Source: Methyloversatilis sp. RAC08
GTDB lineage: Bacteria > Pseudomonadota > Gammaproteobacteria > Burkholderiales > Rhodocyclaceae
Direction of reading: 5' to 3'
DNA length: 64,000 bases
Assembly (NCBI RefSeq): GCF_001713355.1
Contig: NZ_CP016448.1
Coordinates: 2,046,001 to 2,110,000 of the forward strand
Positions 44,530-64,000 of this stretch are shown one piece after another (positions within the stretch are counted from its first letter, which is position 1; each line of letters starts with the position of its first letter). The notes under the pieces are model-generated. The model did not search any database. It was not told the origin of the DNA and saw only the letters and a list, made by a program, of their open reading frames with translations. Made by a program: the position numbers and the translations under genes.

Positions 44530-44673
44530 TCGTGTGAACCTCCGTTTGATATTGTCGTGGGCGCAGGGCTCGGACTGCCTCGCGATGTTGCCATGCCCGG
44601 GTGCGGTCAGGTGTCTCGCATGCGGCTGCCTATATAGACTGACAGCCTTGCCGTTTTGCCTTCCGAACGTGAC

Positions 44674-47161: not shown

Positions 47162-47559
47162 GCGTGGGTCGGTCGCAGTTCGGGGAAGCAAGGCGCCATG
47201 ATGTCCGGGGGCTCCGAATCGTACAGCGATGCAGCGACCTGACAAGGCCGTCATGCGGCAGCGGCGTCTGTCCGTTCCCTCGGCCGTGGTGTCTGGCCAC
47301 CTTCGGCCGCCCGATCCTCTGAAGCCGCCTCGGCGGCCCTGGCTGCTCCGCTTCAGGCCGCGGCGCGTTGGGTTTGTCGCCAGCCTGCTAAGATTCGCAC
47401 GTGCTCGCACAGTGTTCCTGCGGGCTCGTCCGTGCCTTGGTCCAGAAGCTGCACCGCGGGCCGGACAGCCCGCCCCGTCATAGGCTGGGTTCGCCTTGCC
47501 GCTCGCGTACGCAGCGGTTTCCGCTTCTTCAGACCTTACTAATTGATGGTTCTTTTTCG
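47162..47559. other. Divergent region between waaA and the glycan locus
   Basis: These 398 bases should hold the promoters of waaA (minus) and of the long plus-strand glycan locus. I find no JUMPstart-like element, no RNA gene and no ORF I believe. A weak TTGGGT-15-TAAGAT pair lies at about 47368-47394. Confidence 0.4.
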
Positions 47560-49098
47560 ATGAAGGGCAACGCGCCCGTCTCCGCCGGCACGAGTGGTCG
47601 CGGCGATGCGATGCTGCGCAGTACGCTGGTCATAGCCGGCCTCGTCCTGCTCGGCCGGGTGACGGGATTCGGCCGGGAGTGGTTGATTGCACTGCGCGCC
47701 GGCGCAACGGATACCACCGACGTAGCGATCGTCCTCCTGACATTTCCCGATCTGATGGTCAACCTGCTGCTCAGCGGCGGACTCGCAGCTGCACTGGTTC
47801 CGGCCTTCAAGCGACTTGAGCGCGGAGCCGACACGGCGTTGTTCCTGCAGGCATCCCGACTTGTCGGCGGGCTGTTCCTGCTGCTTGCCCTGGCGCTGTT
47901 CGCACTCGCTCCGCAGATGCTCGGCGTTCTCGCCCCGGGTTTGCCTGCCCGGACGCTCGCGCCTCACGGCGACGCTTTCCGACTCATGACCGTGGCGCTG
48001 CCTCTGGCCGCGCTGTCGGGTGTCGTGGTGGCGCTGTTGAATGCGAACGGGCGCTTCGCAATCGGTGCCGCGGGAACCTTGGTGTTCAATCTTGCAGTCA
48101 TCTGCTGCCTGCTGATTGCGGACGCTGACGATACCGTGCTGGCCATCGCCGTTGGTGTCACAGGGGGGTGTCTGCTGCGACTGCTGATGCAGGCATCCGA
48201 GCTCAGGCACGACTGGATCGCGCCGGCCGGGCGCAGGCACCTCATCGACCGCGCGCTGATCAGGCATTTTCTGGGCAGTTTCAGCTTCATCACCATTCTG
48301 GTGGCGCTGCCCCCGCTGGCCCGCGCCATCTCGTCACTCGAGGAGGCGGGCGCGCTTTCCCTGTTCAACTACGCCTACAAGCTGGTCGAGTTGCCCATGG
48401 GGGTGGTGATCGGTTCGATCAGTACGGTGCTGCTGCCGCGGCTTGCTGCTGACGTCGCCCACGGTACGCGTGACCTCGTGCAGGCAAATCTGGCGATCGG
48501 CATGCGTGCAGTGATCTGCATTTCAATCGGCATCGCGATTCCCGCGGCGATCTTTTCGGACACGCTCGTGCAGCTTGCCTTTTTCAAGGCATCGTTCGAG
48601 CCCGGGCAGGTCGAAGCCTTGTCGGTGCTCGCGGCGATCGGGTTTGTTTCGCTGCCTTTTCAGGGCCTGCTGACCATCTATGGTTCGGCGTTCGCGGCCA
48701 GCGGCCACACTCGCCCGCTCGTCGCGACGGCGGCCATCATGCTCGTCGCCGTCGCCGCCACAGCCCCGATTGCCCGCAGCCTGCTGGGGCTACCCGGGGT
48801 GATGGCCGCGTATGCCGGCGTCTATGCGCTGGGTGCCGTCCTGTTGTCGTGGCAGGCGGGCCGGCGATTCGGTCCGGGTACCGTCTCGCTCGCCTTCAGG
48901 GATGCGCCAAAGGCACTTTTACTGCCCGCGTTGATTGCCGCGGGTATCGCACTTCTTGGCGACCACGGCAGCGATGGTCTGGTTGCCCGCGCTGCCTGGG
49001 CCGGTGCGTCCTTCGCGGCATTTCTGGCCAGCGTCCTGCTCCTCGATGGCAGACTGCGTGCATCGCTTGCAAGGCCCCCGAAAGAGAGTGCCTCATGA
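47560..49098 (+). CDS. MurJ/MviN-family lipid-linked oligosaccharide flippase
   Basis: A 512-residue protein with about 14 helices. The N-terminal LVIAGLVLLGRVTGFGREWL and the segment LLTFPDLMVNLLLSGGLAAA match MviN/MurJ family flippases. It could be MurJ itself (lipid II) or a dedicated flippase of the glycan made by this locus; genomic position favours the latter. The start is uncertain: no ribosome site lies before the ATG at 47560. The stop overlaps the next gene. Confidence 0.85.
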   Translation: MKGNAPVSAGTSGRGDAMLRSTLVIAGLVLLGRVTGFGREWLIALRAGATDTTDVAIVLLTFPDLMVNLLLSGGLAAALVPAFKRLERGADTALFLQASRLVGGLFLLLALALFALAPQMLGVLAPGLPARTLAPHGDAFRLMTVALPLAALSGVVVALLNANGRFAIGAAGTLVFNLAVICCLLIADADDTVLAIAVGVTGGCLLRLLMQASELRHDWIAPAGRRHLIDRALIRHFLGSFSFITILVALPPLARAISSLEEAGALSLFNYAYKLVELPMGVVIGSISTVLLPRLAADVAHGTRDLVQANLAIGMRAVICISIGIAIPAAIFSDTLVQLAFFKASFEPGQVEALSVLAAIGFVSLPFQGLLTIYGSAFAASGHTRPLVATAAIMLVAVAATAPIARSLLGLPGVMAAYAGVYALGAVLLSWQAGRRFGPGTVSLAFRDAPKALLLPALIAAGIALLGDHGSDGLVARAAWAGASFAAFLASVLLLDGRLRASLARPPKESAS

Positions 49099-49907
49099 TG
49101 AAACTGATGATGATCGTCAATCGGCCCGACATTGCACGGTTCGTTGCGCAATGTGGTGTCGACCGCATTTTTGTGGATCTGGAGTACCTGGGCAAGCAGG
49201 AGCGTCAGGGGCATCTGGATACCTGGTTGTCGCGCCATGTGCCGGCGGATATAAGCCGGGTAAGGGATGCGATCGGCGACACCACGCTGCTGGTGCGGCT
49301 CAATCCCTGGCATGCGGGTTCGAGCGAGGAGATCGAGGATGCGATTGCCCGCGGGGCAGACATCCTGATGCTGCCCATGTTTCATCAGGTGACCGAGGTC
49401 GAGGCTTTCTGTGCCGTGGTCGGCGGTCGCCTGCCTGTCATCCCGCTGGTGGAGACAGCCGCGGCGCTCGACGCATTGCCCGAGGTCGCACGCGTGCCCG
49501 GTGTTGCGGAAGTCTTCATCGGGCTGAACGACCTGCATCTTTCGCTGGGGCTGAAATTCATGTTCGAACCGCTGGCTGACGGGCTGCTCGATCGCGCGGC
49601 CGCACAGCTGCGCCCGCTCGGTGTTCCGTTCGGATTCGGTGGGCTGGCGCGCGTCGGTGAAGGGCTGCTGCCCGCTGAGCGCATCATCGGGGAACACGTC
49701 CGCCTGGGTTCCAGCGCCGCCATCCTGTCGCGCACCTTTCACCGACAGGCGGCGGATGTGCAGGCGATGCAGTCCGAGATGGACTTTCCGGGGGAGCTTG
49801 CGCGCCTGCGCGCGGCATTCGACGAATACAGCAAGGCGGACGAAGCCACCCTCGCGGCGAATCATGCGGAAGTCGTCCGCATCGTGCGCGAAATTGCAGG
49901 CAGATAG
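49095..49907 (+). CDS. HpcH/HpaI aldolase-like protein
   Basis: A 270-residue TIM barrel of the HpcH/HpaI (citrate lyase beta-like) family: FVAQCGVDRIFVDLEYLGK, the metal-site Glu region IPLVETAAALDALPEVA, and EVFIGLNDLHLSLGLKFMFE. These enzymes join or cleave pyruvate-type carbon units; in glycan loci they may act on a sugar precursor. The start ATGATG at 49095 overlaps the flippase stop (ATGA), so it is coupled. Confidence 0.85.
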   Translation: MMKLMMIVNRPDIARFVAQCGVDRIFVDLEYLGKQERQGHLDTWLSRHVPADISRVRDAIGDTTLLVRLNPWHAGSSEEIEDAIARGADILMLPMFHQVTEVEAFCAVVGGRLPVIPLVETAAALDALPEVARVPGVAEVFIGLNDLHLSLGLKFMFEPLADGLLDRAAAQLRPLGVPFGFGGLARVGEGLLPAERIIGEHVRLGSSAAILSRTFHRQAADVQAMQSEMDFPGELARLRAAFDEYSKADEATLAANHAEVVRIVREIAGR

Positions 49908-49967: not shown

Positions 49968-51821
49968 ATGTGCGGAATTTTCGGCTATTACGACCGGCAA
50001 CACGTCCGGATGGACGATGCAAGACTGCAGGCCATGGGGCGCCTGCTTCGTCACCGTGGGCCTGACGACACCGGCGTCCGCGAGACGGATGGCGTCGCCA
50101 TCGGCAACCGCCGCCTGTCCATCATCGATATCGCGGGAGGCCACCAGCCTTTCGTCTCGGACGACGGAACGATTGCCATCGTCCAGAACGGTGAAATATT
50201 CAACCATGTAGAGCTGGCGGCGGAGCTGTCCGGCACGCCGTTCGAATGCCGGACCCATTCCGACACCGAAGTGCTGCTGCGCCTCTACGAGCGTGACGGC
50301 ATCGATTTCCTGCACCGGCTCAACGGCATGTTTGCCATTGCGATTCACGATGCGCGAATCGATACGCTGTTCCTGGTGCGCGACCGCATAGGCGTGAAGC
50401 CGCTCTATATCCACGACGACGGCACCCGGCTGTGCTTCGCGTCGGAGATCAAGTCACTGCTGAGCGCCGGCGTGCCCCGGAAGATGGACCCGGTCGCACT
50501 GCACCACTACCTCACGTTCAACTACGTCCCGCCACCGCATACGCTTTTCGAAGGCATTCGCCACCTGATGCCCGGACATCTGGCACGCATCGACCGCAAG
50601 GGCTGCACCGAATCGCGCTGGTGGTCACTGGCCGACCAGGAGGCCGAAACGCGTACGGAAGGTGACTGGATCAGTGCCTTCAATGAAACGCTGGACGACG
50701 CCGTGCGGCTCCGTCTGCGTTCGGATGTGCCATTCGGCGCCTTCCTTTCCGGTGGGGTGGATTCAAGCACCGTGGTGGGCATGATGAGCCGCCACATGAC
50801 CGAGCCCGTCAATACGTATGCCATCGGATTTCACGAGGAGCGATTCGACGAAAGTCCGTATGCAGCCCGGGCGGCCGAACTGTTCGGTACCCGGCACACG
50901 CTGCAGAAGGTGGATGCAGACATGCTTGATCTCTGGCCACTCGCCGTCTGGCACTGCGATCAGCCGCACGGCGATGTGTCTTTCCTGCCGACGTACCGGG
51001 TCGCCCAGCTTGCCGCACGCGAAGTGAAGGTGGTGCTGACCGGCGACGGCGGCGACGAACTTTTCGCCGGCTACGACAAGCACCGCAATTTCTTCTCCCG
51101 CCCGGCGGCCGCTGAGGCGTCCGATGCCGAGTTCCGGCGGGCCTATCACGCCAATCTCAGTCTGTTCGACGAAGCCGCAAAGCGCACGCTCTACACGGCA
51201 ACGCTGTCCAGGCAGATCAGTGACATCGATTCCCGCAGCGTCACCGGTCCGCTGTTCGACGAAGCGCGGCACATGGACCGCATCAACCAGGCGCTGTACA
51301 TCGACATGCAGCTGCTGCTGTCCGGCAACAATCTGGTCAAGCCGGACCGGATGGGCATGGCGGTATCGCTCGAGGCGCGTACGCCCTTTCTCGACTACCG
51401 GATGATGGAACTCGCCTTCCGCATGCCGGGCTCGCTCAAACTGAAGGACGGCGAGACGAAGTACCTCTACAAGAAGGCCGTGAGCCCGCTGATCGGCCAT
51501 GATCTGGCCTATCGCCGGAAGCAGATGTTCACCGTGCCGGTCGGCGAGTGGTTCCGCGACAGCCTGTCAGGCTTTGTCGAAGAGGTTCTGCTCGGCGAAC
51601 GGACCATCGGGCGGGGATTGTTCGATCCGATGCGGGTGCGGACATTGATCGACGAGCACCGCAGCGGCAAGACCGACCGGACGCGCGAACTGCGCGCGCT
51701 GATCGCCGTCGAGCTGTGGGCGCGGACATTCATCGATCCGACCGACTTCGTCGATGTGGCCGACCCCGACTTCCAGTCGCTCGGTCTCGATCTTCGAGCC
51801 GCACCCGTTGCCCGTCCCTGA
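49968..51821 (+). CDS. asnB: Asparagine synthase (glutamine-hydrolysing)
   Basis: A 617-residue enzyme with nucleophile Cys2 (MCGIFGYYD), a GATase domain (1-200, GVKPLYIHDDG) and a synthetase domain with ATP pyrophosphatase loop SGGVDSS (261-267) and LTGDGGDELFAGY. Glycan-locus homologues often amidate uronic acids instead of aspartate; that specificity cannot be read here. It lies between an aldolase and the initiating sugar transferase. Confidence 0.92.
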   Translation: MCGIFGYYDRQHVRMDDARLQAMGRLLRHRGPDDTGVRETDGVAIGNRRLSIIDIAGGHQPFVSDDGTIAIVQNGEIFNHVELAAELSGTPFECRTHSDTEVLLRLYERDGIDFLHRLNGMFAIAIHDARIDTLFLVRDRIGVKPLYIHDDGTRLCFASEIKSLLSAGVPRKMDPVALHHYLTFNYVPPPHTLFEGIRHLMPGHLARIDRKGCTESRWWSLADQEAETRTEGDWISAFNETLDDAVRLRLRSDVPFGAFLSGGVDSSTVVGMMSRHMTEPVNTYAIGFHEERFDESPYAARAAELFGTRHTLQKVDADMLDLWPLAVWHCDQPHGDVSFLPTYRVAQLAAREVKVVLTGDGGDELFAGYDKHRNFFSRPAAAEASDAEFRRAYHANLSLFDEAAKRTLYTATLSRQISDIDSRSVTGPLFDEARHMDRINQALYIDMQLLLSGNNLVKPDRMGMAVSLEARTPFLDYRMMELAFRMPGSLKLKDGETKYLYKKAVSPLIGHDLAYRRKQMFTVPVGEWFRDSLSGFVEEVLLGERTIGRGLFDPMRVRTLIDEHRSGKTDRTRELRALIAVELWARTFIDPTDFVDVADPDFQSLGLDLRAAPVARP

Positions 51822-51842: not shown

Positions 51843-52397
51843 ATGAAACGTCTGACAGACATCGTTTTCGCGCTGCTCCTGCTGGCGCTGATCTGGCCAC
51901 TGCTGCTCGTGATTGCGCTGATCGTGCGTACCGATTCGCCCGGCCCCTTTGTCTACAGGCAAATCAGGGTCGGGCTTCACGGACGCTCGTTCGGGATGTT
52001 CAAATTCCGCAGCATGGTGGTCAACGCCGACCGGATCGGTGGCTATCAGACACATCAGGGCGATCCGCGCATCACGCGCTCGGGCAGATGGCTGCGGAAG
52101 ACCAGCCTGGACGAGTTGCCGCAGTTGTTCAACGTACTGCTCGGCGACATGAGTTTCGTCGGGCCTCGCCCCGACGTACCTGCGCAGCGAGAGCTGTATT
52201 CGGAACAGGACTGGGCATTGCGCACCTCGGTGCGTCCCGGCATCACCGGGCTGGCCCAGGCAACGCTGCGGTCCGAAGCCAGAGCCGCGCAGCGGCTCGC
52301 GCTTGACCTCGAATATGTACGCCGGCAATCGCTCTGGCTCGATCTGAAGATACTGGTGATGACCGTGCGCCAGGTGCTTGGCAAAGGCAGCTACTGA
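51843..52397 (+). CDS. Initiating sugar transferase (PglC/WcaJ core type)
   Basis: A 184-residue bacterial sugar transferase that moves a sugar phosphate to undecaprenyl phosphate at the inner membrane. A single re-entrant helix (MKRLTDIVFALLLLALIWPL) precedes the catalytic core: GPFVYRQIRVGLHGRSFGMF, FKFRSM, KTSLDELPQL and FVGPRP. It is the short monotopic form. It probably starts synthesis of the glycan encoded around it. Confidence 0.93.
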   Translation: MKRLTDIVFALLLLALIWPLLLVIALIVRTDSPGPFVYRQIRVGLHGRSFGMFKFRSMVVNADRIGGYQTHQGDPRITRSGRWLRKTSLDELPQLFNVLLGDMSFVGPRPDVPAQRELYSEQDWALRTSVRPGITGLAQATLRSEARAAQRLALDLEYVRRQSLWLDLKILVMTVRQVLGKGSY

Positions 52398-52452: not shown

Positions 52453-53624
52453 GTGAACATCGTCGCGACGCCGCGGATGCACGCATTCGATCTGCTGCGA
52501 GGCTGCTGTGCCATCGCAGTCGCGTGCTACCACCTGCTCAACTGGCAACACGTGGTGACCCTGGACGCGATCGGTCTGTATGCGGTCTATGTGTTCTTCG
52601 TGCTGTCCGGCGCGAGCATCACGCTGGCCTACGCGGACAAACTGCGCACGCTGGCGGACTTCCGCTCCTTCATGGCAATTCGCTATCTGCGGCTGGCGCC
52701 GCTTTACATGGCGGTGCTGGCGCTGGCGATGGCGTATCGGGTCGTGGCCCGGGACAACGACGCGCTGCTGCACAAGGCGATGCAATTGCTGCCGAACATC
52801 ACGATGCTGTTCGGAATCGGCAATCCCGGGGCGTCATCCCTGGTCATTGGTGGCTGGTCGCTCGGCATCGAATTTCTTTTCTATCTGCTGTTTCCGGCGT
52901 TCCTCGTCTGTGCATCGCTGGCCCGCGGCAAACCCTGGCTTGCTGCAGCGATGCTCGCGCTGACGCTGTTGATCCAGCAGGGATTCGTCGACAGCGTGCT
53001 TCAGTCCGGGATGGTCCGGTTCAGCGATCAGGTTTTCGCCTATACCCAGTTCGCCGCATTCATCGCCTACTTTTCCGGTGGTTGCGCCATCGGAATGGTG
53101 CTGCGTTCGGCGCCCGGGCGTCGCTGGAGTGCGTGGGCATGGATACCTGCCATCGCGTTGCTGGTCCTGCTCTTTGCCGATCACACGAGCCCGCAGGCAA
53201 GCATGCTGACCGGTCTGGAGGGGGGGGCCGTGCCGTGCTGACAGTACTTGTGGTCCTTGCGTGGAGCCGGCTACCGGTAGGCGGTATCATGCGGAAGTTT
53301 TCGGGCAGCCTGGGCGATGCCAGCTACGGAATCTATCTTCTGCACCCGGTCCTCTTTCACGGTTTCGCCGCACTCGGTGGAAGCGGCGGTTTCCTTCCGG
53401 CGTTCTCCCCGGGCGCGAACGCAGCAGTGCTCTGCGTGATGATTGTGGTGTGTTCGTTCGCGCTGTCGATCGCCTTTCATCGTCTTGTCGAAACGCGCGT
53501 GCTGCGCTGGGGCAAGGAGCGATTCGTCTTCGACCATGCAGCGCGCGATCACACCGGCGTGCCGGGCGCGGCAACCGGACGCACACCGGAATTCAAGACG
53601 GATCGACAAGAAAGAACCCCATGA
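52453..53624 (+). pseudogene. Acyltransferase 3 family gene interrupted at a G8 tract
   Basis: The first frame (52453-53241, GTG start) encodes an acyltransferase_3 membrane protein: FDLLRGCCAIAVACYHLLNW with the catalytic His region, VFFVLSGASITLAY, and GGWSLGIEFLFYLLFPAFL. It ends in sense at a run of eight Gs (53220-53227) and stops soon after. The last helices continue in the next frame (SYGIYLLHPVLFHGFAALGG) to 53624, where the stop overlaps the next start (ATGA). One more or two fewer Gs restores about 390 residues. Confidence 0.8.
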
Positions 53625-54355
53625 GAGTCATCGCAAAACTTGACGTCAAACCGCCTTACGTCGTGAAGCCGGTTCATTTCGAGGGCCTGCGCAAGATTGG
53701 CGCGCCGGCGGAACTTGCGCGGCAGTATTACGAGCAGGGTGCAGACGAAATATTCTATGTCGATATCGTCGCTTCGCTGTACCGCCGGGAAGTTCTGTTC
53801 GATGAAATCCGCAGAGCCTCGGCCGATATCTTCGTACCGTTTGCCGTCGGAGGAGGGATACGTTCTCTGGACGATATCTCGCGCATGTTCCACAGCGGCG
53901 CCGACAAGGTCACCCTGAATACCCACGCCGTCCAGCAGGAGCCCGATCTGATCGACCGTGCGGCGCGAACATTCGGTTCGCAGGCGATCGTCATCAATGT
54001 CGAGGCAAAGCGCTGGGATGGCTGGTGGGAGTGCTACACCGATTGCGGCCGCGAGCGCAGCGGCAAGGACGTGCTGGCATGGGTGCGCGAGGCGGAACAG
54101 CGCGGAGCAGGCGAGATTCTGGTGCAATCGGTCGACTGTGACGGCCGTCGCGCCGGCTTCGACATCGAACTGATTTCGCAGGTCAAGAACAGTGTTTCGG
54201 TACCGGTCGTGGCGGCCAGCGGCGCCGGAAGCCTGGCGGACATCGTTGCCATGGCGCGCAAGGCTCGCCCGGATGCCGTTGCAGTGGCGAGCGTGCTTCA
54301 CTATGGTCTGTGCAGCATCCAGGACATCAAGAACGCACTGAAAGACGGGGAGTAA
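53621..54355 (+). CDS. hisF: HisF-like cyclase subunit of glycan amidotransferase system
   Basis: A 244-residue TIM barrel. IAKLDVKPPYVVKPVHFEGL carries the HisF-type Asp8 region and VQSVDCDGRRAGFD the second catalytic Asp. It differs from histidine-pathway HisF and sits with HisH- and WbpG-like genes, as in O-antigen loci where the three make acetamidino sugars: HisH releases ammonia, HisF channels it and WbpG uses it. The start overlaps the acyltransferase stop. Confidence 0.85.
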   Translation: MRVIAKLDVKPPYVVKPVHFEGLRKIGAPAELARQYYEQGADEIFYVDIVASLYRREVLFDEIRRASADIFVPFAVGGGIRSLDDISRMFHSGADKVTLNTHAVQQEPDLIDRAARTFGSQAIVINVEAKRWDGWWECYTDCGRERSGKDVLAWVREAEQRGAGEILVQSVDCDGRRAGFDIELISQVKNSVSVPVVAASGAGSLADIVAMARKARPDAVAVASVLHYGLCSIQDIKNALKDGE

Positions 54356-54362
54356 AGGTCAC

Positions 54363-54968
54363 ATGTCCAGAACGATCGGTGTCGTGGATTACGGCTCGAC
54401 GGGAAACATCGAGAGCATCCGCAAGGCGCTCGTTGCGGCGGGCGCACAGGTCAGGATCATCGACGACGCGCGCAACCTTTCAGGTGCAGACAAGCTCGTG
54501 CTGCCGGGCGTCGGCAGCTTTGCGGAGGCCATGCGGCAGGTTCGCGAGCGCGGCATGTTCGATCCGCTGATCAGTGCGGCGGCATCGACACCGATACTGG
54601 GTATCTGCCTCGGCATGCAGATGCTGGCCAGAGTCGGCTACGAGTTCGGCGAAACGTCCGGTTTCGGCCTGATAGACGGGGAAGTGAGGCCGGTGGTCTG
54701 CAAGGCGGCCATCCCGCATATCGGATTCAAGCAGATCCGGAAGATCGGCGATTCACCGCTTTTTCACGGCCTGGCCAGCGACGCCGAGTTTTATTTCATG
54801 CACTCGTACGAGTTCGTGAATTACACCGATGTGGCAGGCCTGACCACCCACGGCGAGCACCAGTTCGTTTCTGCCGTTGCGAAAAGCCATTTGTTCGGCG
54901 TTCAATTTCATCCCGAAAAAAGCCGGGACGCCGGTATTCGACTGCTGAAGAACTTCGTTGAGCTCTGA
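54363..54968 (+). CDS. hisH: HisH-like glutamine amidotransferase
   Basis: A 201-residue class I glutaminase. Nucleophile Cys82 lies in GICLGMQ, and the His183/Glu185 pair in QFHPEKS completes the triad. IGVVDYGSTGNIESIRKALV at the start is the usual HisH N-terminus. It feeds ammonia to the HisF-like partner seven bases upstream and probably to the WbpG-like enzyme downstream. Confidence 0.88.
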   Translation: MSRTIGVVDYGSTGNIESIRKALVAAGAQVRIIDDARNLSGADKLVLPGVGSFAEAMRQVRERGMFDPLISAAASTPILGICLGMQMLARVGYEFGETSGFGLIDGEVRPVVCKAAIPHIGFKQIRKIGDSPLFHGLASDAEFYFMHSYEFVNYTDVAGLTTHGEHQFVSAVAKSHLFGVQFHPEKSRDAGIRLLKNFVEL

Positions 54969-54975
54969 AAAGATC

Positions 54976-56190
54976 ATGACTGCCACACAGGGAAAGTACG
55001 GACTTCCTCTCGAAGTGAAGTTCTGCCGGAAATGCACGATGAGCAATCAGCGTCCGGCATCGACGGTCGAGTTCAGGAACGTCAGGGGACAACTGAAGCA
55101 GTCGCTTGTTTTCGACGAGCATGGCGTATGCGACGCCTGCAATTTCGCCGAACTCAAGAAACAGATCGACTGGACGGCGCGCGAACAGCAGCTGGTGGAA
55201 CTGTGCAACCGCTTCCGCCGCAGTGATGGCCGCTACGACGTCGTTGTCCCGGGCAGTGGCGGCAAGGATAGTGTCATGGCTGCTCACGTGCTCAAGTACA
55301 AGTACGGCATGAACCCCATCCTCGTGACCTGGCCCCCTGCCATCTACACCGGCATCGGACAGCTCAATTTCAACAAGTGGCTCGACATCGGGTTCGCCAA
55401 TTACACCTATCACCAGAATCGCAAGGTGCACCGGATTCTCACGCAACAGGCTTTTCTCAACCTGTGTCATCCGTTCCAGCCCTTCATTCTCGGGCAGAAG
55501 AATCTGGCGCCCAAGATGTCGGCGCTGCTCGACATTCCACTGGTCATCTTCGGCGAGAACGAGGCGGAGTACGGAAATCCTATCGTCGACAACGAAAAGC
55601 CGACGCGCGATCCGAAGTATTACAGCGCCGAGGGCCGGCTGGATGATCTGTACCTCGGTGGCGTGAGTGCGCGCGAGTTGATGGATCGGTACCAGTTCAC
55701 CAAAGCCGATCTCGAAGCCTATCTCCCGGTCGATCCGAACCGTCTTCTCGAAACCGGCACGGAAGTCCATTACCTGGGTTTCTACCTGCGCTGGCACCCG
55801 CAGGAAACGTATTACTTCGCCGTCGAGCATTCCGGCTTCGTGCCGAACGTCCATCGGACCGAAGGCAGCTACAGCAAGTACAGCTCGCTGGACGATGAAA
55901 TCGACTGGCTCCATTACTACACCGCTCACGTCAAGTTCGGCATCGGCCGTGCGACATACGATTCAGCGCAGGAAATCCGCAACGGCGACATCACGCGCGA
56001 CGAGGGCATTGCCCTGATCAAGCGCTACGACGGTGAATATCCCCATCAGTACCTAGCCGACTGCCTCGAGTACATGGACATCACCGCCGATCAGTTTCAT
56101 GCGGTGATCGAGGACGCTCGCACGCCGCACCTGTGGGTGAAGGACGGCGAACAATGGCGCCTGCGCCAGCCGATCTGGGAAAAAGGGTGA
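54976..56190 (+). CDS. N-acetyl sugar amidotransferase (WbpG/PseA type)
   Basis: A 404-residue enzyme of the TIGR03573 family that converts an N-acetyl group to acetamidino on a sugar. An N-terminal zinc ribbon (Cys17, Cys20, Cys52 and Cys55) is followed by the PP-loop SGGKDS (94-99). IFGENEAEYGNP and EIDWLHYYTAHVKFGIGRAT lie further on. It follows the HisF/HisH genes, the known partners. The ATG at 54976 is chosen over TTG 54958. Confidence 0.9.
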   Translation: MTATQGKYGLPLEVKFCRKCTMSNQRPASTVEFRNVRGQLKQSLVFDEHGVCDACNFAELKKQIDWTAREQQLVELCNRFRRSDGRYDVVVPGSGGKDSVMAAHVLKYKYGMNPILVTWPPAIYTGIGQLNFNKWLDIGFANYTYHQNRKVHRILTQQAFLNLCHPFQPFILGQKNLAPKMSALLDIPLVIFGENEAEYGNPIVDNEKPTRDPKYYSAEGRLDDLYLGGVSARELMDRYQFTKADLEAYLPVDPNRLLETGTEVHYLGFYLRWHPQETYYFAVEHSGFVPNVHRTEGSYSKYSSLDDEIDWLHYYTAHVKFGIGRATYDSAQEIRNGDITRDEGIALIKRYDGEYPHQYLADCLEYMDITADQFHAVIEDARTPHLWVKDGEQWRLRQPIWEKG

Positions 56191-56250: not shown

Positions 56251-57033
56251 ATGGTCACCGATGATCCGCGCAAGAGCTACTGGAACGAGGCGTACTACAA
56301 GTACTGGAAGTCCCGTGTTGACGAAGCCGGCGTCGGCAGCAGTCAGGTCATCAAGGGGGATGCCAATACCGAGGACGACGACGTCTATCGGGCGTTGTTC
56401 TCGACCTATGGATTCAATCGCGGGCGTGTGCTTGAGGTCGGCTGCGCGTGGGGCCGCATGTTTCCGTTGTATCTGGCACACGGCCTGACACTCAGTGCCG
56501 TCGACATTTCGGCAGCGATGGTCGGGGCTGCCAGGGAGCGGTGGGCGGGACATCCCGATATCGAGAGCATTCAGGAGTCCCCTGCCGAAAGCCTGCCTTT
56601 CGAGGACGGTAGCTTCGACAATCTGGCCTGCATCGCGACCTTCGATGCCACTTTCCAGGATCAGGCCTTGCGCGAATTCCTGCGCGTGACCAAGGCCGGT
56701 GCGCGCCTGTTCTTCACCGGCAAGCATGACCTGTATCACAGCGATGATCAGGCTGCGCTCGACGCGGAGATCGGTGCGCGGCGCAAGCAGCACCCGAATT
56801 TCTTCACGGATACGCACCGCATGGTCGAACTGCTGCAGGCGCAGGGGCACAAGGTGGATGCCTTGCTGTGCTTTCCGCGCCGCGGTGACTTCGCCAAGGC
56901 GGCTTACGTGACGCCGCCTCCGGATCATTTCTACGAGTACATGATCGTCCTCACGCGGGGGCCGGTGGTGGGCGACTTTCCGCCGTTTGCCAGCGAACAT
57001 TCGAAAACCTTCCTCGCAGGTGAGCACGCATGA
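56251..57033 (+). CDS. Class I SAM-dependent methyltransferase
   Basis: A 260-residue methyltransferase: motif I VLEVGCAWGRMFPLYLA (about 57-73), then SAVDISAAMVGAARERW, and FEDGSFDNLACIATFD as the later motif. No membrane segment is evident. It probably methylates a nucleotide or lipid-linked sugar in this locus. The stop overlaps the sulfotransferase start (ATGA). Confidence 0.85.
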   Translation: MVTDDPRKSYWNEAYYKYWKSRVDEAGVGSSQVIKGDANTEDDDVYRALFSTYGFNRGRVLEVGCAWGRMFPLYLAHGLTLSAVDISAAMVGAARERWAGHPDIESIQESPAESLPFEDGSFDNLACIATFDATFQDQALREFLRVTKAGARLFFTGKHDLYHSDDQAALDAEIGARRKQHPNFFTDTHRMVELLQAQGHKVDALLCFPRRGDFAKAAYVTPPPDHFYEYMIVLTRGPVVGDFPPFASEHSKTFLAGEHA

Positions 57034-58089: not shown

Positions 58090-59442
58090 ATGACCGGCAC
58101 AGTACATATCGTCCACGCGATCGACACCGAAGGGCCGCTTTACGAGTCGCTGGAAGCCAAGTTCGAGCGGCTCGACGACCTCTTCGGCGTCGTGGGCATC
58201 GAACCTACGCCCGGCAATCTGCGCAGACTGCAGGAGGGCGAGATCGATCTCGGCGATCGCACCGACGCAGTGCGCGACATGCTTCGCAGCCACCGTGCCA
58301 ACACGCTGGGTACCTGGACGGAAATCGACCAGATGCTGGAAGTTGCCTGTTCGCGCGAGTTCCGCCATCGATATCCGGACAGTCAGGGGCGCGGTTGGGC
58401 CTACACGTGGTTCTGCATGGATCACGTCGGCTATCTCGAGAATCCGCGCAAACGCGACATCGGCCACCACAACGTGCACGATCACTACGCCGCACTCGTG
58501 AAAAGGCAGGCTTGGGCGCGTGATTCGGTCGAGTTCCATTTCCATCCCATGTCGACCTATCGCGATGCTCACCGCTGCGCGACGCACTACCTGCGTACCG
58601 AAGATCTTTACCAGATTCTGTGTCGCCGCATCATCGACCGCGGCTTTTTCCCGTCGTCCTACCGAGCGGGTTTTCAGGCGGAACGGCCCGACAGCCACTG
58701 GTTCCTGGAACAGTTCATCCCGTATGACATTTCCAACATGGCGACGGCGGATACCTCCGACATCGACGCTTCGATCGATTTCAGGAATGGACGCTCCGGC
58801 AACTGGCGCAAGGCACCGCATGACTGGACGGTCTATCACCCCGACCACGACGACTATCAGGTGCCGGGGCGCTGTCGCCGACTGATCGGACGCGCACTGA
58901 ACCTCAACAGCCGGATCGCACGGATGACGCAGGAAGAAATGGATCAGGGATTTGCGCGCGCGCGCAACGGCGAAGACGTGCTCATCGGACTATGCAGCCA
59001 CGACTGGCGTGATCTCGTGCCTGAGGTGGAAAACGCCTTCCGCTTTCTGGAAGCAGCGAAATCGAGGTATCCGGAGGTTCCCTTCCTGTACAGCAGCTGT
59101 CGCGATGCATTTCGCGCGCAACTGCCGCCGGATCGGGCCGCTGAAGCGCCGCTGGCCATGTCGCTTCGCTTCCAGCCGGAGCAACCCGGCCGCGATGTGC
59201 CATACATCGAAGTCCGAACGGAACAGGGTACGGTCTTCGGCCCTCAGCCCTTTCTTGCGATCAAGACCCGGTCACGCCGGTACATCCACGACAATTTCGA
59301 CTTCGACGTGTCCGGCCGTGTCTGGTTCTACGCATTTCACGGTGACACGCTGCCGTGGTCCGACGTCGATACGATCAGTGTCGCAGCCAACGACATGATG
59401 GGTAATACGGTCGTACTGCGTTACGAGAACGAGGATCGCTGA
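58090..59442 (+). CDS. NodB-like unknown protein, paralogue 1
   Basis: A 450-residue soluble protein starting MTGTVHIVHAIDTEGPLYES. Landmarks are GRGWAYTWFCMDHVGYLENP, FHFHPMSTYRD, RPDSHWFLEQFIPYD and YHPDHDDYQVPGRCRRLIGR. The early Asp (DTEGP) and the HFHP histidines recall polysaccharide-deacetylase (NodB) metal ligands, but I do not recognise a named family. The C-terminal 100 residues look like a beta domain. A collinear paralogue lies at 63124. GGGAGCG upstream supports the start. Confidence 0.7.
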   Translation: MTGTVHIVHAIDTEGPLYESLEAKFERLDDLFGVVGIEPTPGNLRRLQEGEIDLGDRTDAVRDMLRSHRANTLGTWTEIDQMLEVACSREFRHRYPDSQGRGWAYTWFCMDHVGYLENPRKRDIGHHNVHDHYAALVKRQAWARDSVEFHFHPMSTYRDAHRCATHYLRTEDLYQILCRRIIDRGFFPSSYRAGFQAERPDSHWFLEQFIPYDISNMATADTSDIDASIDFRNGRSGNWRKAPHDWTVYHPDHDDYQVPGRCRRLIGRALNLNSRIARMTQEEMDQGFARARNGEDVLIGLCSHDWRDLVPEVENAFRFLEAAKSRYPEVPFLYSSCRDAFRAQLPPDRAAEAPLAMSLRFQPEQPGRDVPYIEVRTEQGTVFGPQPFLAIKTRSRRYIHDNFDFDVSGRVWFYAFHGDTLPWSDVDTISVAANDMMGNTVVLRYENEDR

Positions 59443-59445
59443 CCC

Positions 59446-60666
59446 GTGCGGCGGCACCCGCTCAAGGTACTGATCGCCTGCTACGGCGGAGGGCACGTAC
59501 AGAGCTTGCTGCCCGTGGTACGCCAACTGTCGGGCCAACCGGATGTTTCCGTCACGGTGATCGGCTTCACCACTGCGCTGGCAACATTCCGGAACGCCGG
59601 TATCCAGGCGGCCGGTTACAGTTCGCTGCTCGATGCCGACGACGCGGCATGGCTGTCCCTGGCGCAGACCTGTATTGAAAGACCGCTCCATCCCGAGGTG
59701 TCGGAGCAGGAGTCGGTTGCCTACTACGCACTCGGACTGCGCGATCTGCACATCGACCATGGAGCGGACAAGGCGCGCGAAATCTTTGCCCGCGACGGCC
59801 GCAAGGCCTTCATGCCGGTGCATGCAATGCGCCGCCACCTTCGGCGGTCGACGCCCGATCTGGTGGTTGCCACCACAAGTCCGCGTTCAGAACTGGCGCT
59901 GCTGCGTGCGGCCCGGCTCGAAGGCATTGAATCGCTGGCCGTGTCCGACCTGTTTCTTCAGCATGAGTCTTCCTACATCTGTGCGCCGGGCTATGCGAAC
60001 CACCTGACGGTCATGGCTGCGGCAGTGGGTGACGACATGGCGCGCAGGGGTTTTCCGGCTGAACACATTCATGTCACCGGCAGCCCTGCGTTCGACAGCC
60101 TCTTCGACGGCTCGCATGCAGGGGCGGCCGCCGCGCTGCGCCGACGGCTGGACATGGACGATCAGCAGAAGCTGCTGTTGTGGGCGTGTCCGTCCGCACC
60201 CGTGTCGCTGATCGGAAAGCCGTTCATCGAAACGGCGTCGATGATCGCCTTCCTCGAGGCGTATTGCGAAACGTGGCCGGATACCCGGTATCTGATCCGC
60301 CAGCATCCCAGCAAACCGGTGGTGGCGCCGGAAACCCCGCTTCGACGCGGTTCGGTCTGCCCACCCGGCATCACGATCGAGACCTGCCTGCATGCGTGCG
60401 ATCAGGTCATTCTCGAAACGTCCACGGTAGGGCTACAGGCCGCGCTGCTAGGCAAGCCTGTCGTCACCGTCGGCGCCGGGGACTATCCGCCTTACGCCGC
60501 TTATGGACTGGCTGTCGATGTCCCGGTTCTTGCCGAAGCGGGATCTGCGCTGCGCCGGATGACCTCGCCTGATCTCGTTCGGCTTGCCTACCCGCTGCAG
60601 GAGCGCGCGACCGACCGCGTATGCCGTCTGGTGTGCGAACTCGGTGGTGTGGACGGTGTGAATTGA
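59446..60666 (+). CDS. GT-B-like glycosyl- or glycerophosphotransferase, paralogue 1
   Basis: A 406-residue protein with a two-domain GT-B pattern: LIACYGGGHVQSLLPVVRQL with the glycine-rich start, PDLVVATTSPRSELALLRAA, IHVTGSPAFDSLFDG and ILETSTVGLQAALLGKPVVT. It resembles CDP-glycerol transferases and UDP-sugar epimerase-like enzymes; the substrate is unknown. GTG start, four bases after the NodB-like gene. A paralogue lies at 61878. Confidence 0.72.
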   Translation: MRRHPLKVLIACYGGGHVQSLLPVVRQLSGQPDVSVTVIGFTTALATFRNAGIQAAGYSSLLDADDAAWLSLAQTCIERPLHPEVSEQESVAYYALGLRDLHIDHGADKAREIFARDGRKAFMPVHAMRRHLRRSTPDLVVATTSPRSELALLRAARLEGIESLAVSDLFLQHESSYICAPGYANHLTVMAAAVGDDMARRGFPAEHIHVTGSPAFDSLFDGSHAGAAAALRRRLDMDDQQKLLLWACPSAPVSLIGKPFIETASMIAFLEAYCETWPDTRYLIRQHPSKPVVAPETPLRRGSVCPPGITIETCLHACDQVILETSTVGLQAALLGKPVVTVGAGDYPPYAAYGLAVDVPVLAEAGSALRRMTSPDLVRLAYPLQERATDRVCRLVCELGGVDGVN

Positions 60667-60685
60667 CCTCGCGGGGACACGGATC

Positions 60686-61840
60686 ATGACCCCGGCCCAG
60701 GCTTCGCTGCTCGACAGCCTGCGCGCTGCTGCCGCGCAGATCGTGCTGATCGGGCACATATATTCCATCGTGCTGCGGCCTGAGCGCACGCTGGGCATCG
60801 GTGACCTCGGCGTCGTCGTTTTCTTCGTGCTGTCCGGTTTTCTGATCGGCTATACGACCTTGAACAGGTGCAGCCGCGACGACTACGGTCTCCGGCGCTA
60901 TCTGGTTGATCGTTTCTGCAGGATTTTCGTGCCCTACCTGCCGGCGCTCGTTCTGATCCTGCTCATCGACAGTGCGGTGTTCGCGTGGACCGACACCCGC
61001 ACTTACATCGAGCATTACACGTTCAAGGATTTTGCCGCGTCCCTGCTGATGTTGCAGCAACACCCGGCCGGCTTGTTTCTCGACGAGATTCTCGGAGCAT
61101 CGAGCCTCAAGCTATCGACCTTCTCGAGCGCCCGGCCGCTATGGACGGTAGCCGTCGAGTGGTGGCTCTACGTCAGCTTCGGCCTGCTCGTTTTCCGCGC
61201 CAGGCAGATCGTTTCATCACGCCGCTGGCAACTGCTTTTCATCGCATTCTCGAGTGTGCCCCTGTTCAATGCCATCGCCGGTTCCGGCGCCGGACTGAGC
61301 CTGGTCTGGTTCGCCATGTGCGGACTGGCATGGGTATACTGGAAGGCGCAGAAGAGGATCGACATCCGTATTGCCGACATCATGAACGGCACCGGACCCG
61401 CCCGCGGGCTCTTTCGTGCCGCGCCATTCCTGCTGCTGCTGTTGATCGCTGCTCGCCTGCTGTGGACCGGTCTTCTGGAAACTCGAGAGCCCTTCGAGCG
61501 CTTGCTTTTCTACGACTTCAATCTGTACGGACTGATCATGGCGCTGTGCGTCGTGCTGTTCCTTTTGAAGGGCACAAGGATGCATGGCGAGCGCAATCGC
61601 ACCGCTCGTTTCATAGCCGATTACTCTTATTCGCTGTACCTGATTCATTACAGCGTGATTTTCATGCTTCACGCCTTTGGCCTGAAATCCGGCAGCGACG
61701 TGCTGGATCTATTCATCTATCTCGTTGCCTGCAATGCTGCTGCGATCGTATTCTGGTACGTTTTCGAACGGAACTACCGCAGATTCGGCGAACGTCTTTT
61801 CGGGCGTCACGGGGCAGCACCGGCGCGGGGCATGCCATGA
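60686..61840 (+). CDS. Acyltransferase 3 family membrane protein
   Basis: A 384-residue, about ten-helix O-acyltransferase. LLDSLRAAAAQIVLIGHIYS carries the catalytic His, followed by VVVFFVLSGFLIGYTTL, WTVAVEWWLYVSFGLLVF and YSYSLYLIHYSVIFMLHAFG. It probably acetylates the glycan. Unlike the earlier acyltransferase gene it is intact. It sits between the two GT-B-like paralogues. Confidence 0.9.
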   Translation: MTPAQASLLDSLRAAAAQIVLIGHIYSIVLRPERTLGIGDLGVVVFFVLSGFLIGYTTLNRCSRDDYGLRRYLVDRFCRIFVPYLPALVLILLIDSAVFAWTDTRTYIEHYTFKDFAASLLMLQQHPAGLFLDEILGASSLKLSTFSSARPLWTVAVEWWLYVSFGLLVFRARQIVSSRRWQLLFIAFSSVPLFNAIAGSGAGLSLVWFAMCGLAWVYWKAQKRIDIRIADIMNGTGPARGLFRAAPFLLLLLIAARLLWTGLLETREPFERLLFYDFNLYGLIMALCVVLFLLKGTRMHGERNRTARFIADYSYSLYLIHYSVIFMLHAFGLKSGSDVLDLFIYLVACNAAAIVFWYVFERNYRRFGERLFGRHGAAPARGMP

Positions 61841-61877
61841 TGAGCACATGTATGCACGCGTCTGAGGGGCATGGAGA

Positions 61878-63134
61878 ATGAGAGTGTTTCTGACCTGTTA
61901 CGGGGGCGCTCATGTGTCGGCAATCATCCCGTTGTATCAGGCTCTGGTGAGGCGCGGGCACACCTGCGACCTCCTGGCACTCACGACCGCGGCGGAAACG
62001 GCGCGGCGCTGCAATCTGCCCTTCTATCGCCCGATCGACTTCGTCGACATCGCCGACGCAGACATTCTCGAATGGGGAGAGCGCCTGGCCCAACGCCACC
62101 ATACCGAAGGCAAAGGGCTTTCCCGCGATGAGTCGATTGCCTATCTGGGCGTGTCGTTCTGCGACCTTGCCGCGGATATCGGCGAGGCGGAGGCCTGGCG
62201 ACGCTACGAGAAATCGGGTCTGAATGCTTTCGCACCCGTTCGTTTCATGCGCAGGGTCATTGCGCAGTTCGAACCTGACGTCGTTGTCGCGACCACATCG
62301 CCACGCATGGAAAAGGCGGCCTTGCGCGCAGCCTTTCAACTCGATGTACCCAGCCTGTGCATGGTCGAGTTGTTCGGACTGCTCGAGGAACCATGGCTCA
62401 GTCGGCCCGACAACGGTCATGTGCTGGCCGTGTCTCGTGAAGACGTCCGGAGGCGCCTTGTGGCCGCCGGTCGCCAGGCCTGCGATATTCACCTTACAGG
62501 CAGTCCGATGTTCGATCAGCTGGCCGATCCGGATCTGCCCGCTGCGGGTCGCAGATGGCGCCATGAACACGGGGTTGCGGACAGTGAAAAACTCGTCTTC
62601 TGGGCTGAACAGCCGGAACCCGGTGATCCGGAACTCCCGCGCAGGGTACGCCTGCATCTGGCGGATCTGTGCCGCCGCAAGGGGTGGCGACTCGTCGTAC
62701 GCCTGCATCCCAGCAGTACCGATCATCGTGCAGAGAAGATACCTTCGGACTGCCTGCAGAGTCACGCGCATGAGCCGCTTTCACATGTCATGCATGCCTG
62801 CGATGCGGGCGTCACGCTGACATCTACGGTCGGGTGGGAGCTTCTTCTCTGCAACAAGCCGTTACTCGTCATCCGCATATCCGAGTTCAGCAATGCCGTA
62901 ACCTACGGCAGCGATGATGGAGCCCTCGTCGTTGACACGCTTGAACAGGCTGCCGGCGGTTTGTCCGATCTGTTGCACGACACCACCGAATCAGCACGGC
63001 TGCAGCAGTTCAGGTCACGGCTGCCCAGCCCCGGCGGCGCGTCGCACCGGATCTGCGACCTGATTGAAAAGACCGTTTTCGCGCGCAACTACAGTCTCGA
63101 AGACATGAGGCGCGCCCGCACACATGCAAACTGA
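61878..63134 (+). CDS. GT-B-like glycosyl- or glycerophosphotransferase, paralogue 2
   Basis: A 418-residue paralogue of the gene at 59446 with matching landmarks: RVFLTCYGGAHVSAIIPLYQ, PDVVVATTSPRMEKAALRAA, DIHLTGSPMFDQLAD and LTSTVGWELLLCNKPLLVIR. The insert between the domains differs, so the two probably act on different substrates. Its stop overlaps the next gene's start region by 11 bases. Confidence 0.72.
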   Translation: MRVFLTCYGGAHVSAIIPLYQALVRRGHTCDLLALTTAAETARRCNLPFYRPIDFVDIADADILEWGERLAQRHHTEGKGLSRDESIAYLGVSFCDLAADIGEAEAWRRYEKSGLNAFAPVRFMRRVIAQFEPDVVVATTSPRMEKAALRAAFQLDVPSLCMVELFGLLEEPWLSRPDNGHVLAVSREDVRRRLVAAGRQACDIHLTGSPMFDQLADPDLPAAGRRWRHEHGVADSEKLVFWAEQPEPGDPELPRRVRLHLADLCRRKGWRLVVRLHPSSTDHRAEKIPSDCLQSHAHEPLSHVMHACDAGVTLTSTVGWELLLCNKPLLVIRISEFSNAVTYGSDDGALVVDTLEQAAGGLSDLLHDTTESARLQQFRSRLPSPGGASHRICDLIEKTVFARNYSLEDMRRARTHAN

Positions 63135-64000
63135 TCAATTGAACACACCGATCCTGCACGTCGTTCACTGCATCGACACGGAAGGACCTCTTGATGAAGA
63201 CATCGATGCGACCTTCAAACGCATCGAGGGCCTTTTCGGCGTCCGCTTGCCCGTTTCTGCCGAGACGCTGACTGCGCTGCAGCGCCGGGATATCCCCCTC
63301 GATGGTCTGGAACATGAAATTGCTGCGGTAATCACCCCCAACCTGTTGTCCTACAATCGCAACTGGGCCGACATACGCAGCATGCTGGACGAGGCGCTCA
63401 GTCCGCAGTTCAGGCGCGAAATGACGGACGACACCGGGCGCGGCTGGGTCTACAGCTGGCATTGCCTCGATCACCTGGGTTACACGGCGAATCCCCGCCG
63501 GAAGGATCTTGGCTACGGGAAGGTGTTTCACTTTTACCGCAGCGTGCTGGCGGAAACAGGAAGTCGCGACGACGAAGTAAACTGGCACTTCCATCCGCTG
63601 TCGCTGACCCGGGAGCCGCTCGCTGCCGCGACATCCTATTCGAACAGCATGGACATCCTGCTGTCGGTGCTGGCACGGCGCATCATCGAGGACGGTTGGT
63701 TTCCGACCACCAACCGCCCGGGCTTTCACTCCGAAAGGCCTGATTCGCACGCCTTTCTCGAACAGTGGATACCGTTCGACTACGCCAATCAGTCCTGCGT
63801 GCTGTCGGAGAGCGAACAGAAGGACACGCATCTGGGGCGCTTCGGCGACTGGCGGCGCGCACCCCTCGACTGGATCGGCTATCACCCGCACCACGACGAC
63901 TACCAGGTGCCTGGCCAGTGTCGCCGTTGGATCTTCCGCTGTCTGAACGTGGGCACCCGTCTGCGGCAACTGACCGAAGCCGACGTGCATGATGCGTTCC
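63124..64000 (+). CDS. NodB-like unknown protein, paralogue 2 (3' end outside window)
   Basis: 292 codons are visible. It is collinear with the gene at 58090: HVVHCIDTEGPLDEDIDATF, GRGWVYSWHCLDHLGY, NWHFHPLS, RPDSHAFLEQWIPFDYANQS and YHPHHDDYQVPGQCRRWIF. The putative ligand positions (DTEGP and HFHP) are conserved, so a shared activity is likely. It is probably coupled to the preceding GT-B-like gene by an 11-base overlap. Confidence 0.72.
   Translation, partial: MQTDQLNTPILHVVHCIDTEGPLDEDIDATFKRIEGLFGVRLPVSAETLTALQRRDIPLDGLEHEIAAVITPNLLSYNRNWADIRSMLDEALSPQFRREMTDDTGRGWVYSWHCLDHLGYTANPRRKDLGYGKVFHFYRSVLAETGSRDDEVNWHFHPLSLTREPLAAATSYSNSMDILLSVLARRIIEDGWFPTTNRPGFHSERPDSHAFLEQWIPFDYANQSCVLSESEQKDTHLGRFGDWRRAPLDWIGYHPHHDDYQVPGQCRRWIFRCLNVGTRLRQLTEADVHDAF

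Follow-up and report, generated by a model that had tools for sequence, protein, structure and literature searches.

Near the end of a window of 64,000 nucleotides from Methyloversatilis sp. RAC08 (positions 2,046,001-2,110,000 of a single 3.94-Mb contig; the window is the whole stretch analysed), a five-gene module encodes two NodB-like proteins and two proteins with a GT-B-like fold, the candidate glycosyltransferases (GTs) GT 1 and GT 2. Neither family carries a name in Pfam or NCBIfam. Because relatives of both usually sit beside genes for sialic-acid-like sugars, the two families are good candidates for attaching and trimming such sugars. The module stands in the middle of a ~30-kb Wzx/Wzy-type surface-polysaccharide cluster for a modified nonulosonic acid (NulO), probably of the legionaminic type. 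The module comprises the following genes (window numbering).

58090-59442, plus strand: NodB-like protein 1; N-terminal barrel-like domain (residues ~1-345), C-terminal beta-sandwich with an FGPQPFLA block
59446-60666, plus strand: GT-B-like protein 1 (GT 1), candidate transferase of cytidine monophosphate (CMP)-activated NulO; RxHP, ST and TxSPRxE motifs; Capsule_synth 22.4 bits (cut-off 20)
60686-61840, plus strand: acyltransferase-3 (OafA-type); Pfam Acyl_transf_3, E = 1.4e-24
61878-63134, plus strand: GT-B-like protein 2 (GT 2), candidate CMP-NulO transferase; AlphaFold2 model with predicted local distance difference test score (pLDDT) 91.3; Foldseek matches to the GT-B / UDP-GlcNAc 2-epimerase fold, best E = 4e-13
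63124-64482, plus strand: NodB-like protein 2 (63124-64000 inside the window; the rest read from the genome sequence past it)

The genes from NodB-like 1 to GT 2 are separated by 3, 19 and 37 bases, and GT 2 and NodB-like 2 overlap by 11 bases. These coordinates bear out the gene order and common strand given in a preliminary description of the sequence. Paralogy of both pairs, also proposed there, is far above chance: the NodB-like proteins share about 40% identity (39-41% over three comparisons), NodB-like 1 as query finds NodB-like 2 at E = 2e-103, and GT 1 and GT 2 are 30% identical. The landmark motifs named for both families are present, except that HHDDYQVPG occurs only in NodB-like 2, NodB-like 1 having DHDDYQVPG. 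The symmetry around the acyltransferase is real here, but among the loci examined this mirror order is confined to four Methyloversatilis genomes. A look past position 64000 for further copies had been suggested; NodB-like 2 ends at 64,482, and at E ≤ 0.001 the source genome holds these two copies and no third.

Linkage of both families to NeuB

A pattern scan of genome collections recovered 24 NodB-like loci (L numbers) in 24 genomes (G numbers), with titles spanning Alpha-, Beta- and Gammaproteobacteria, Nitrospinaceae, Actinomycetes, Thermoleophilia, Deinococcales, Planctomycetaceae, Cyanobacteria and others; the closest titled relatives found are Methyloversatilis bins at 97% identity. All loci come from this one scan with two short peptide patterns, so recall is uncertain, and many are metagenome bins; L012, L013 and L015 are taken as the same genomes as the relatives G003, G006 and G010. 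A renewed search of the 24 genomes gave 29 NodB-like copies, with two copies in five genomes.

Every one of the 24 genomes has a NeuB-family gene, and in 21 it lies on the same contig as the NodB-like gene, 0.2 to 13.2 kb away; it directly precedes the NodB-like gene in L017, L018 and L035. In the other three genomes (G464, G467 and G469) the two genes are on different contigs, and for two of these (L119, L120) the expected cluster order surrounds NeuB. Counted by gene, 24/29 NodB-like copies share a contig with NeuB at a distance of up to 13.3 kb, and 19/29 at up to 10 kb. The control, the initiating transferase family PF02397, has 57 matches in these 24 genomes, of which 8 fall within the 13.3 kb (Fisher p = 5e-10); a few of the 57 rows are fragments, and one scores under the curated cut-off. 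The 13.3-kb threshold was chosen after the NodB distances had been seen, and the control was counted at this distance.

The GT family shows the same association, with 15 of 19 genes within 13.3 kb of NeuB. In a phylum sample of 398 genomes, where at most four first-look candidates per genome were scored for the NodB-like and GT families and at most six for NeuB, a NeuB-family gene occurs in 152 genomes and the GT in four, three of them besides the source genome. These three have no NodB-like match, either in the genome or in the 19 kb around the GT; one (G109) is a distant, partial GT match. In all three, NeuB is found on the contig of the GT and no more than 10 kb away; the GT thus follows NulO synthesis on its own account. 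A second GT of G471 (L117:13352-14545) is found 9 kb from another NeuB, the NodB-like match of that genome being at the main locus only. An actinobacterial NulO cluster carries a DUF4910/DUF2172 protein (L017:12851-14173) two genes after the NodB-like gene.

The NodB-like gene itself is an accessory trait. It is present in 4 of 13 Methyloversatilis genomes, with two copies each, in none of 48 other relatives searched, and in 1 of the 398 sampled genomes, the source genome itself.

Pairing of the two families

Thirteen of the 24 NodB-like genomes also encode the GT. Of the 20 GT rows found, one (G465, E = 1.9e-7) was dropped from the count as it overlaps the NeuC frame, and the matched stretch of two (G455 and G468 C294) contains an in-frame stop. 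Five of the 13 genomes (G451, G452, G454, G468 and G472) have two NodB-like and two GT genes; three of the five are Methyloversatilis and are counted as one event. In a further genome, G471, two GTs accompany a single NodB-like gene. Between the two families the distance matrices agree (Mantel test, 16 NodB-GT pairs, r = 0.86, 0/9,999 permutations as high), as they do for the NodB2 side alone (11 pairs, r = 0.85, 0/9,999); the pairs leave out the near copies L012 and L015, NodB-like genes without a GT and the G471 GT without a NodB-like gene. A NodB1-GT1 side (Methyloversatilis copy 1, L016, L033a and the second locus of the L029 genome) is separable from a NodB2-GT2 side; the one exception is the GT of L033b, whose pair takes different positions in the NodB-like and GT trees. 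In Methyloversatilis, L016 and L033, methyltransferase 1 and the sulfotransferase (listed below) accompany the NodB1 side.

The expectation of conserved pairing thus holds in part: the pair recurs in 13 of 24 genomes and is doubled in five, but 11 of 24 have the NodB-like gene without this GT and 3 of 398 have the GT without the NodB-like gene. The families are frequent, not obligate, partners. The idea of two parallel two-enzyme steps fits the matrices and the two sides, although matrix agreement shows co-inheritance, and joint movement of neighbouring genes would give the same. Proteins beside the NodB-like gene in L024 and L034 were considered as divergent GT partners and rejected: the two show no kinship to each other, hhalign finds none between the L024 protein and the GT family, and at E 1e-6 both genomes lack a GT match.

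The NodB-like family

In the predicted model of the NodB-like protein (pLDDT 86.8), strands alternate with helices, a long helical insert follows strand 1, and a beta-sandwich forms the C terminus. Seven residues (D12, E14, H150, H152, R192, H304 and D305) are invariant in the alignment of 26 NodB-like proteins and sit in or at strand ends of the model; D12, H150 and H152 among them would be the ligands of a putative metal. The order of these D, HxH, R and H blocks is that of the motifs of CE4 deacetylases. The beta-sandwich holds a near-invariant block, FGPQP[FW]LA, and we know of no CE4 enzyme that has it. The top PDB match of the model is a polysaccharide deacetylase (3s6o; E = 2.6e-3, probability 0.98, template modelling (TM) scores 0.33/0.45); most matches below it are immunoglobulin-like proteins, which we take to reflect the predicted beta-sandwich.

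Family searches gave no name. Pfam returned a single chance-level match for NodB-like 1 (E = 0.013, below cut-off), and for the 26 members at E up to 10 no convincing match, with no CE4 model among the 12 families matched; NCBIfam at E up to 1 gave nothing for NodB-like 1 or for the 292 in-window residues of NodB-like 2. The sole repeated library match is to a PHROG of unknown function (5/26 members, best E = 0.0028). The statement in the preliminary description that neither family could be named therefore stands for both, GT 1 passing only the cut-off of the broad Capsule_synth family. We rejected the NodB-like protein as a plain CE4 enzyme, as the Pfam and profile tests failed, and keep the kinship as predicted topology only. 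The label NodB-like is accordingly retained for a fold that the model suggests, while the kinship it might imply was not found by Pfam, NCBIfam or hhalign; on the predicted topology the proteins are NodB-like, not members of CE4.

An origin of the NodB-like gene from phages or plasmids was rejected as well: phage and plasmid records gave no match, and none of 33 viral-contig pattern matches encodes a relative (the GT was not searched there). A viral structure library likewise gave no match at E ≤ 0.001.

The GT-B-like family

The GT 2 model has 351 PDB matches at E ≤ 0.001, headed by 2-epimerases of uridine diphosphate N-acetylglucosamine (UDP-GlcNAc) and by GT-B transferases, and is predicted to consist of the two Rossmann-type domains of a GT-B fold. 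By hhalign the family matches the NeuC of its own cluster with a probability of 97. The Asp of the NeuC GDR block, which has a catalytic role in NeuC/WecB UDP-GlcNAc 2-epimerases, aligns with S141, a Ser kept in all 14 GT proteins of the alignment; the GTs were rejected as epimerases on this replacement. GT 1 passes the Capsule_synth (PF05159) cut-off of 20 and GT 2 fails it; that family includes transferases of 3-deoxy-D-manno-oct-2-ulosonic acid (Kdo). RxHP and ST are invariant in the same 14 proteins, so that the family has the HP motif of the sialyltransferases GT38, GT52 and GT80, in which, according to an excerpt of PMC2169525, this conserved motif is involved in binding CMP-Neu5Ac (the CMP-activated sialic acid).

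The surrounding surface-polysaccharide cluster

Upstream of the module lie, in order, a MurJ-type flippase, an HpcH/HpaI-type gene, an AsnB-type amidotransferase, the initiator, a short acyltransferase, HisF, HisH, an N-acetyl sugar amidotransferase, a methyltransferase and a sulfotransferase. The principal genes are as follows.

47401-49098, plus strand: MurJ/Wzx-type flippase; Pfam MurJ, 9.8e-43
49968-51821, plus strand: asparagine-synthase-type amidotransferase (AsnB); Pfam Asn_synthase, 5.4e-96
51843-52397, plus strand: initiating sugar-phosphate transferase (PglC/WcaJ type); Pfam Bac_transf, 3.2e-67
53621-54355, plus strand: HisF-like partner of the sugar amidotransferase; Pfam His_biosynth, 3.9e-58
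54363-54968, plus strand: HisH-like glutaminase partner; Pfam GATase, 1.1e-19
54958-56190, plus strand: N-acetyl sugar amidotransferase (WbuX type); NCBIfam TIGR03573, 1.1e-95, above cut-off
56251-57033, plus strand: methyltransferase 1; Pfam Methyltransf_11, 3.2e-15; adjoins the NodB-like gene also in L016 and L033
57030-58070, plus strand: sulfotransferase; Pfam Sulfotransfer_3, 1.8e-25; near the NodB-like gene also in L016 and L033

Past the window follow a Wzy_C-domain protein, methyltransferase 2, a protein without a Pfam or NCBIfam match, a cytidylyltransferase, a Gfo/Idh oxidoreductase, a short-chain dehydrogenase, NeuB, NeuC, NeuD, an aminotransferase with CBS and DegT (LegC-like) domains, and a WbpM-like frame named by eye. 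The NulO genes among these (cytidylyltransferase, NeuB, NeuC, NeuD and the aminotransferase) lie 5-10 kb beyond NodB-like 2; the NeuB gene, 7.3 kb from it, is the single NeuB-family gene of the genome. NeuB (Pfam NeuB, 7.2e-91; TIGR03569), NeuC (Pfam Epimerase_2, 1.4e-77; TIGR03568) and NeuD (TIGR03570) all score above the curated NCBIfam cut-offs. The cytidylyltransferase is above the Pfam cut-off (CTP_transf_3, 1.4e-17), with PseF as best NCBIfam model, below cut-off, and the LegC-like aminotransferase reaches 351.9 bits against an NCBIfam cut-off of 420. The locus thus combines NeuB, a cytidylyltransferase, NeuC and NeuD, the set that marks a nonulosonic acid biosynthesis cluster. As to legionaminic or neuraminic product, the models that NeuB and NeuC pass carry neuraminate in their names, and the LegC-like and PseF scores are sub-cut-off. 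From flippase to aminotransferase, the initiator, GT 1 and GT 2 are the only sugar transferases that family scans recognise. An undescribed glycan system, as first suggested, is too wide a term for a NulO surface-glycan cluster of a known kind, the marker genes of which lie just outside the window.

Several neighbouring frames deserve mention. The protein past the window without a family match (362 residues; L004:5067-6152, or 68066-69154 in window numbering plus stop) is matched by neither Pfam nor NCBIfam within the limits applied and looks propeller-like by eye; 14 of the 24 loci have a homologue close to the NodB-like gene, and one further genome has it on another contig (L120), which makes it a third unnamed family of NodB-like/NulO clusters. 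The first acyltransferase-3 gene (52453-53241) is short, at 262 residues, where the frames of the relatives L013 and L015 have ~380-390; another frame seems to hold more of the gene, which a frameshift or sequencing error may break. Between the flippase and AsnB lies the HpcH/HpaI aldolase-type gene (48849-49907), the listed start of which overlaps the flippase frame. Further upstream are a TIGR03790 family protein (44656-45867) and a 432-residue frame without a family match (45848-47146). The sulfotransferase inside a NulO cluster may be compared with granular sludges, for which sulfated and sialylated glycoconjugates are reported together (excerpt of PMC10483923).

A proposed role and its alternatives

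The content of the cluster, the family relationships, the genomic linkage to NeuB and the pairing are shown by the sequence analysis, and the folds as predictions. As to function, the reading that we tentatively favour, at somewhat less than an even chance, is that in the Methyloversatilis NulO polysaccharide cluster GT 1 and GT 2 transfer NulO from CMP-NulO and that their NodB-like partners de-N-acylate the same residue. The WbpM-like, LegC-like, NeuD, NeuC, NeuB and NeuA-like proteins would supply CMP-activated NulO. In the cytosol, GT 1 and GT 2 would each add one NulO to a lipid-linked repeat begun by the PglC-type enzyme, and the NodB-like partner of each GT would remove an N-acyl group from that residue; a cytosolic site is suggested for the NodB-like proteins because no signal peptide is apparent at their N termini, as judged by inspection. 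The freed amine could then be used by the decorating enzymes (the amidotransferase with HisH/HisF, methyltransferases, acyltransferases and the sulfotransferase), and the decorated repeat would be flipped and polymerised. A gene of the N-acyltransferase type (PF02522) adjoins the NodB-like gene in L014 (11371-12168) and is one gene away in L023 (12088-13047), which fits de-acylation followed by re-acylation. PF02522 is the aminoglycoside 3-N-acetyltransferase fold, and these two genes are perhaps sugar N-acyltransferases, not resistance genes. The more specific proposal, two new families acting on the same residue, with GT-B enzymes for transfer of legionaminic-type acids onto lipid-linked glycans and cytosolic N-deacylases specific for NulO, we consider doubtful.

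A number of observations weigh against the favoured reading. Eight strands precede the beta-sandwich in the NodB-like model, which is a (beta/alpha)7 barrel only if residues 265-271 are an insert, and model confidence is low for the loop that follows H152 (154-169). Classic CE4 enzymes have DD and HxxxH, and the NodB-like proteins D-x-E and H-x-H. The PDB structure search of the model gave no match at E 0.001, its best TM scores being low; by hhalign, the family matched 8 XrtA-type and 11 classic CE4 proteins, all drawn from the genus Methyloversatilis and its relatives, no better than 12 control families. The 11 genomes with a NodB-like gene and no GT belong here too. In the 14-protein GT alignment the D/E-D/E-G motif is not conserved, a DGA block in the C-terminal half occurring in part of the rows only. 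Methyloversatilis has a single NeuB for its two GT-NodB pairs, so that the second GT could draw on a different donor. SpsB of Bacillus subtilis, with HP and DEG motifs and encoded beside genes for legionaminic acid (Leg), is not required for Leg transfer according to an excerpt of PMC7439481.

Several of these points feed a different view of the NodB-like proteins, which we rate as a serious if unlikely alternative: that they are not deacylases, the barrel carrying out another NulO reaction (such as hydrolysis of residues activated in error or put in the wrong place, epimerisation or a role accessory to the transferase) while the beta-sandwich holds the acceptor. The lack of CE4 sequence kinship by Pfam and hhalign, weak fold scores with an ambiguous strand count, the D-x-E and H-x-H variants, the FGPQP[FW]LA block and a phage family of unknown function as the only repeated library match all agree with it. 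The conserved D, HxH, R and H, which the model places within strands or at their ends, nevertheless fit the NodB order, and the best PDB match is a polysaccharide deacetylase.

The GTs could also be ordinary GT-B transferases using nucleoside diphosphate (NDP) sugars, the NulO being added by a cluster protein that the family scans did not recognise. We think this improbable, although the distant kinship to UDP-GlcNAc 2-epimerases, which bind UDP-sugars, the missing D/E-D/E-G motif and the presence of two GTs for one NeuB speak for it. Set against these are the invariant RxHP and ST, GT 1 scoring above the cut-off of a family that includes Kdo transferases, the initiator as the only other recognised sugar transferase of the cluster, and the GT-NeuB linkage in 3/3 genomes (one with a distant GT match) without a NodB-like match. 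HP motifs alone did not mark the B. subtilis Leg transferase (excerpt of PMC7439481), a further point for an NDP-sugar donor. That the GT-B-like proteins are instead NeuC/WecB-type epimerases or hydrolases seems to us very improbable: the hhalign probability to the same-cluster NeuC and the matches to solved 2-epimerases would agree with this, but S141 replaces the GDR-block Asp throughout, the cluster already has a NeuC, and without GT 1 and GT 2 its only recognised transferase would be the initiator.

Relation to known systems

Among the matches listed in a search of the open-licence literature, neither family is described; other papers could do so. NulO surface glycans are of a known kind, here with two protein families unnamed in Pfam and NCBIfam. 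According to an excerpt of a 2020 study, bacterial enzymes that transfer legionaminic acid to cell surfaces had not been reported, and two TagB-domain proteins of Tannerella are given as plausible legionaminic acid transferase candidates (PMC7439481). A later paper names Maf4 as a putative flagellin legionaminyl transferase (excerpt of PMC9298399), and another notes genes annotated as deacetylases in pseudaminic acid islands of Aeromonas (excerpt of PMC7874193).

With the initiator as the sole other recognised sugar transferase, a GT family that tracks NeuB across phyla makes the question of legionaminic acid transfer directly testable. A deacylase-like partner without a family model could explain the variety of N-acyl groups on NulO sugars, and the NodB-like family would give annotation pipelines a new marker for NulO clusters. 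If the more specific proposal of two new families is true, free-amine or re-acylated NulO would be formed, and bacterial sialic-acid-like glycans across many phyla would include a de-N-acylation step.

The NodB-like proteins resemble CE4/NodB deacetylases (PF01522) in the order of acidic, His, Arg and His blocks and in a barrel-like model, and differ in having no detectable sequence kinship, HxH for HxxxH, a C-terminal beta-sandwich and no evident signal peptide. With GT38, GT52, GT80 and Capsule_synth the GT family shares the predicted GT-B fold and the HP motif, GT 1 being above the Capsule_synth cut-off; unlike GT38, GT52 and GT80 it has no D/E-D/E-G, has a TxSPRxE block of its own, and finds its nearest profile kin among UDP-GlcNAc 2-epimerases. 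The NeuC/WecB 2-epimerases are alike in fold and distant sequence kinship, whereas the GT family has Ser for the GDR Asp, with RxHP present. At the level of the whole cluster, the Ptm/Leg pathway of Campylobacter jejuni and the O-antigen locus of Legionella pneumophila serogroup 1 are similar in combining NeuB/NeuC/NeuA-type genes with a sugar amidotransferase and a methyltransferase. In the Leg pathway, ptmH N-methylates CMP-Leg5Am7Ac (excerpt of PMC3766260). A search of that paper for the words deacetylase and glycosyltransferase finds neither, whereas the Methyloversatilis cluster combines its NulO genes with a sulfotransferase and two GT/NodB pairs.

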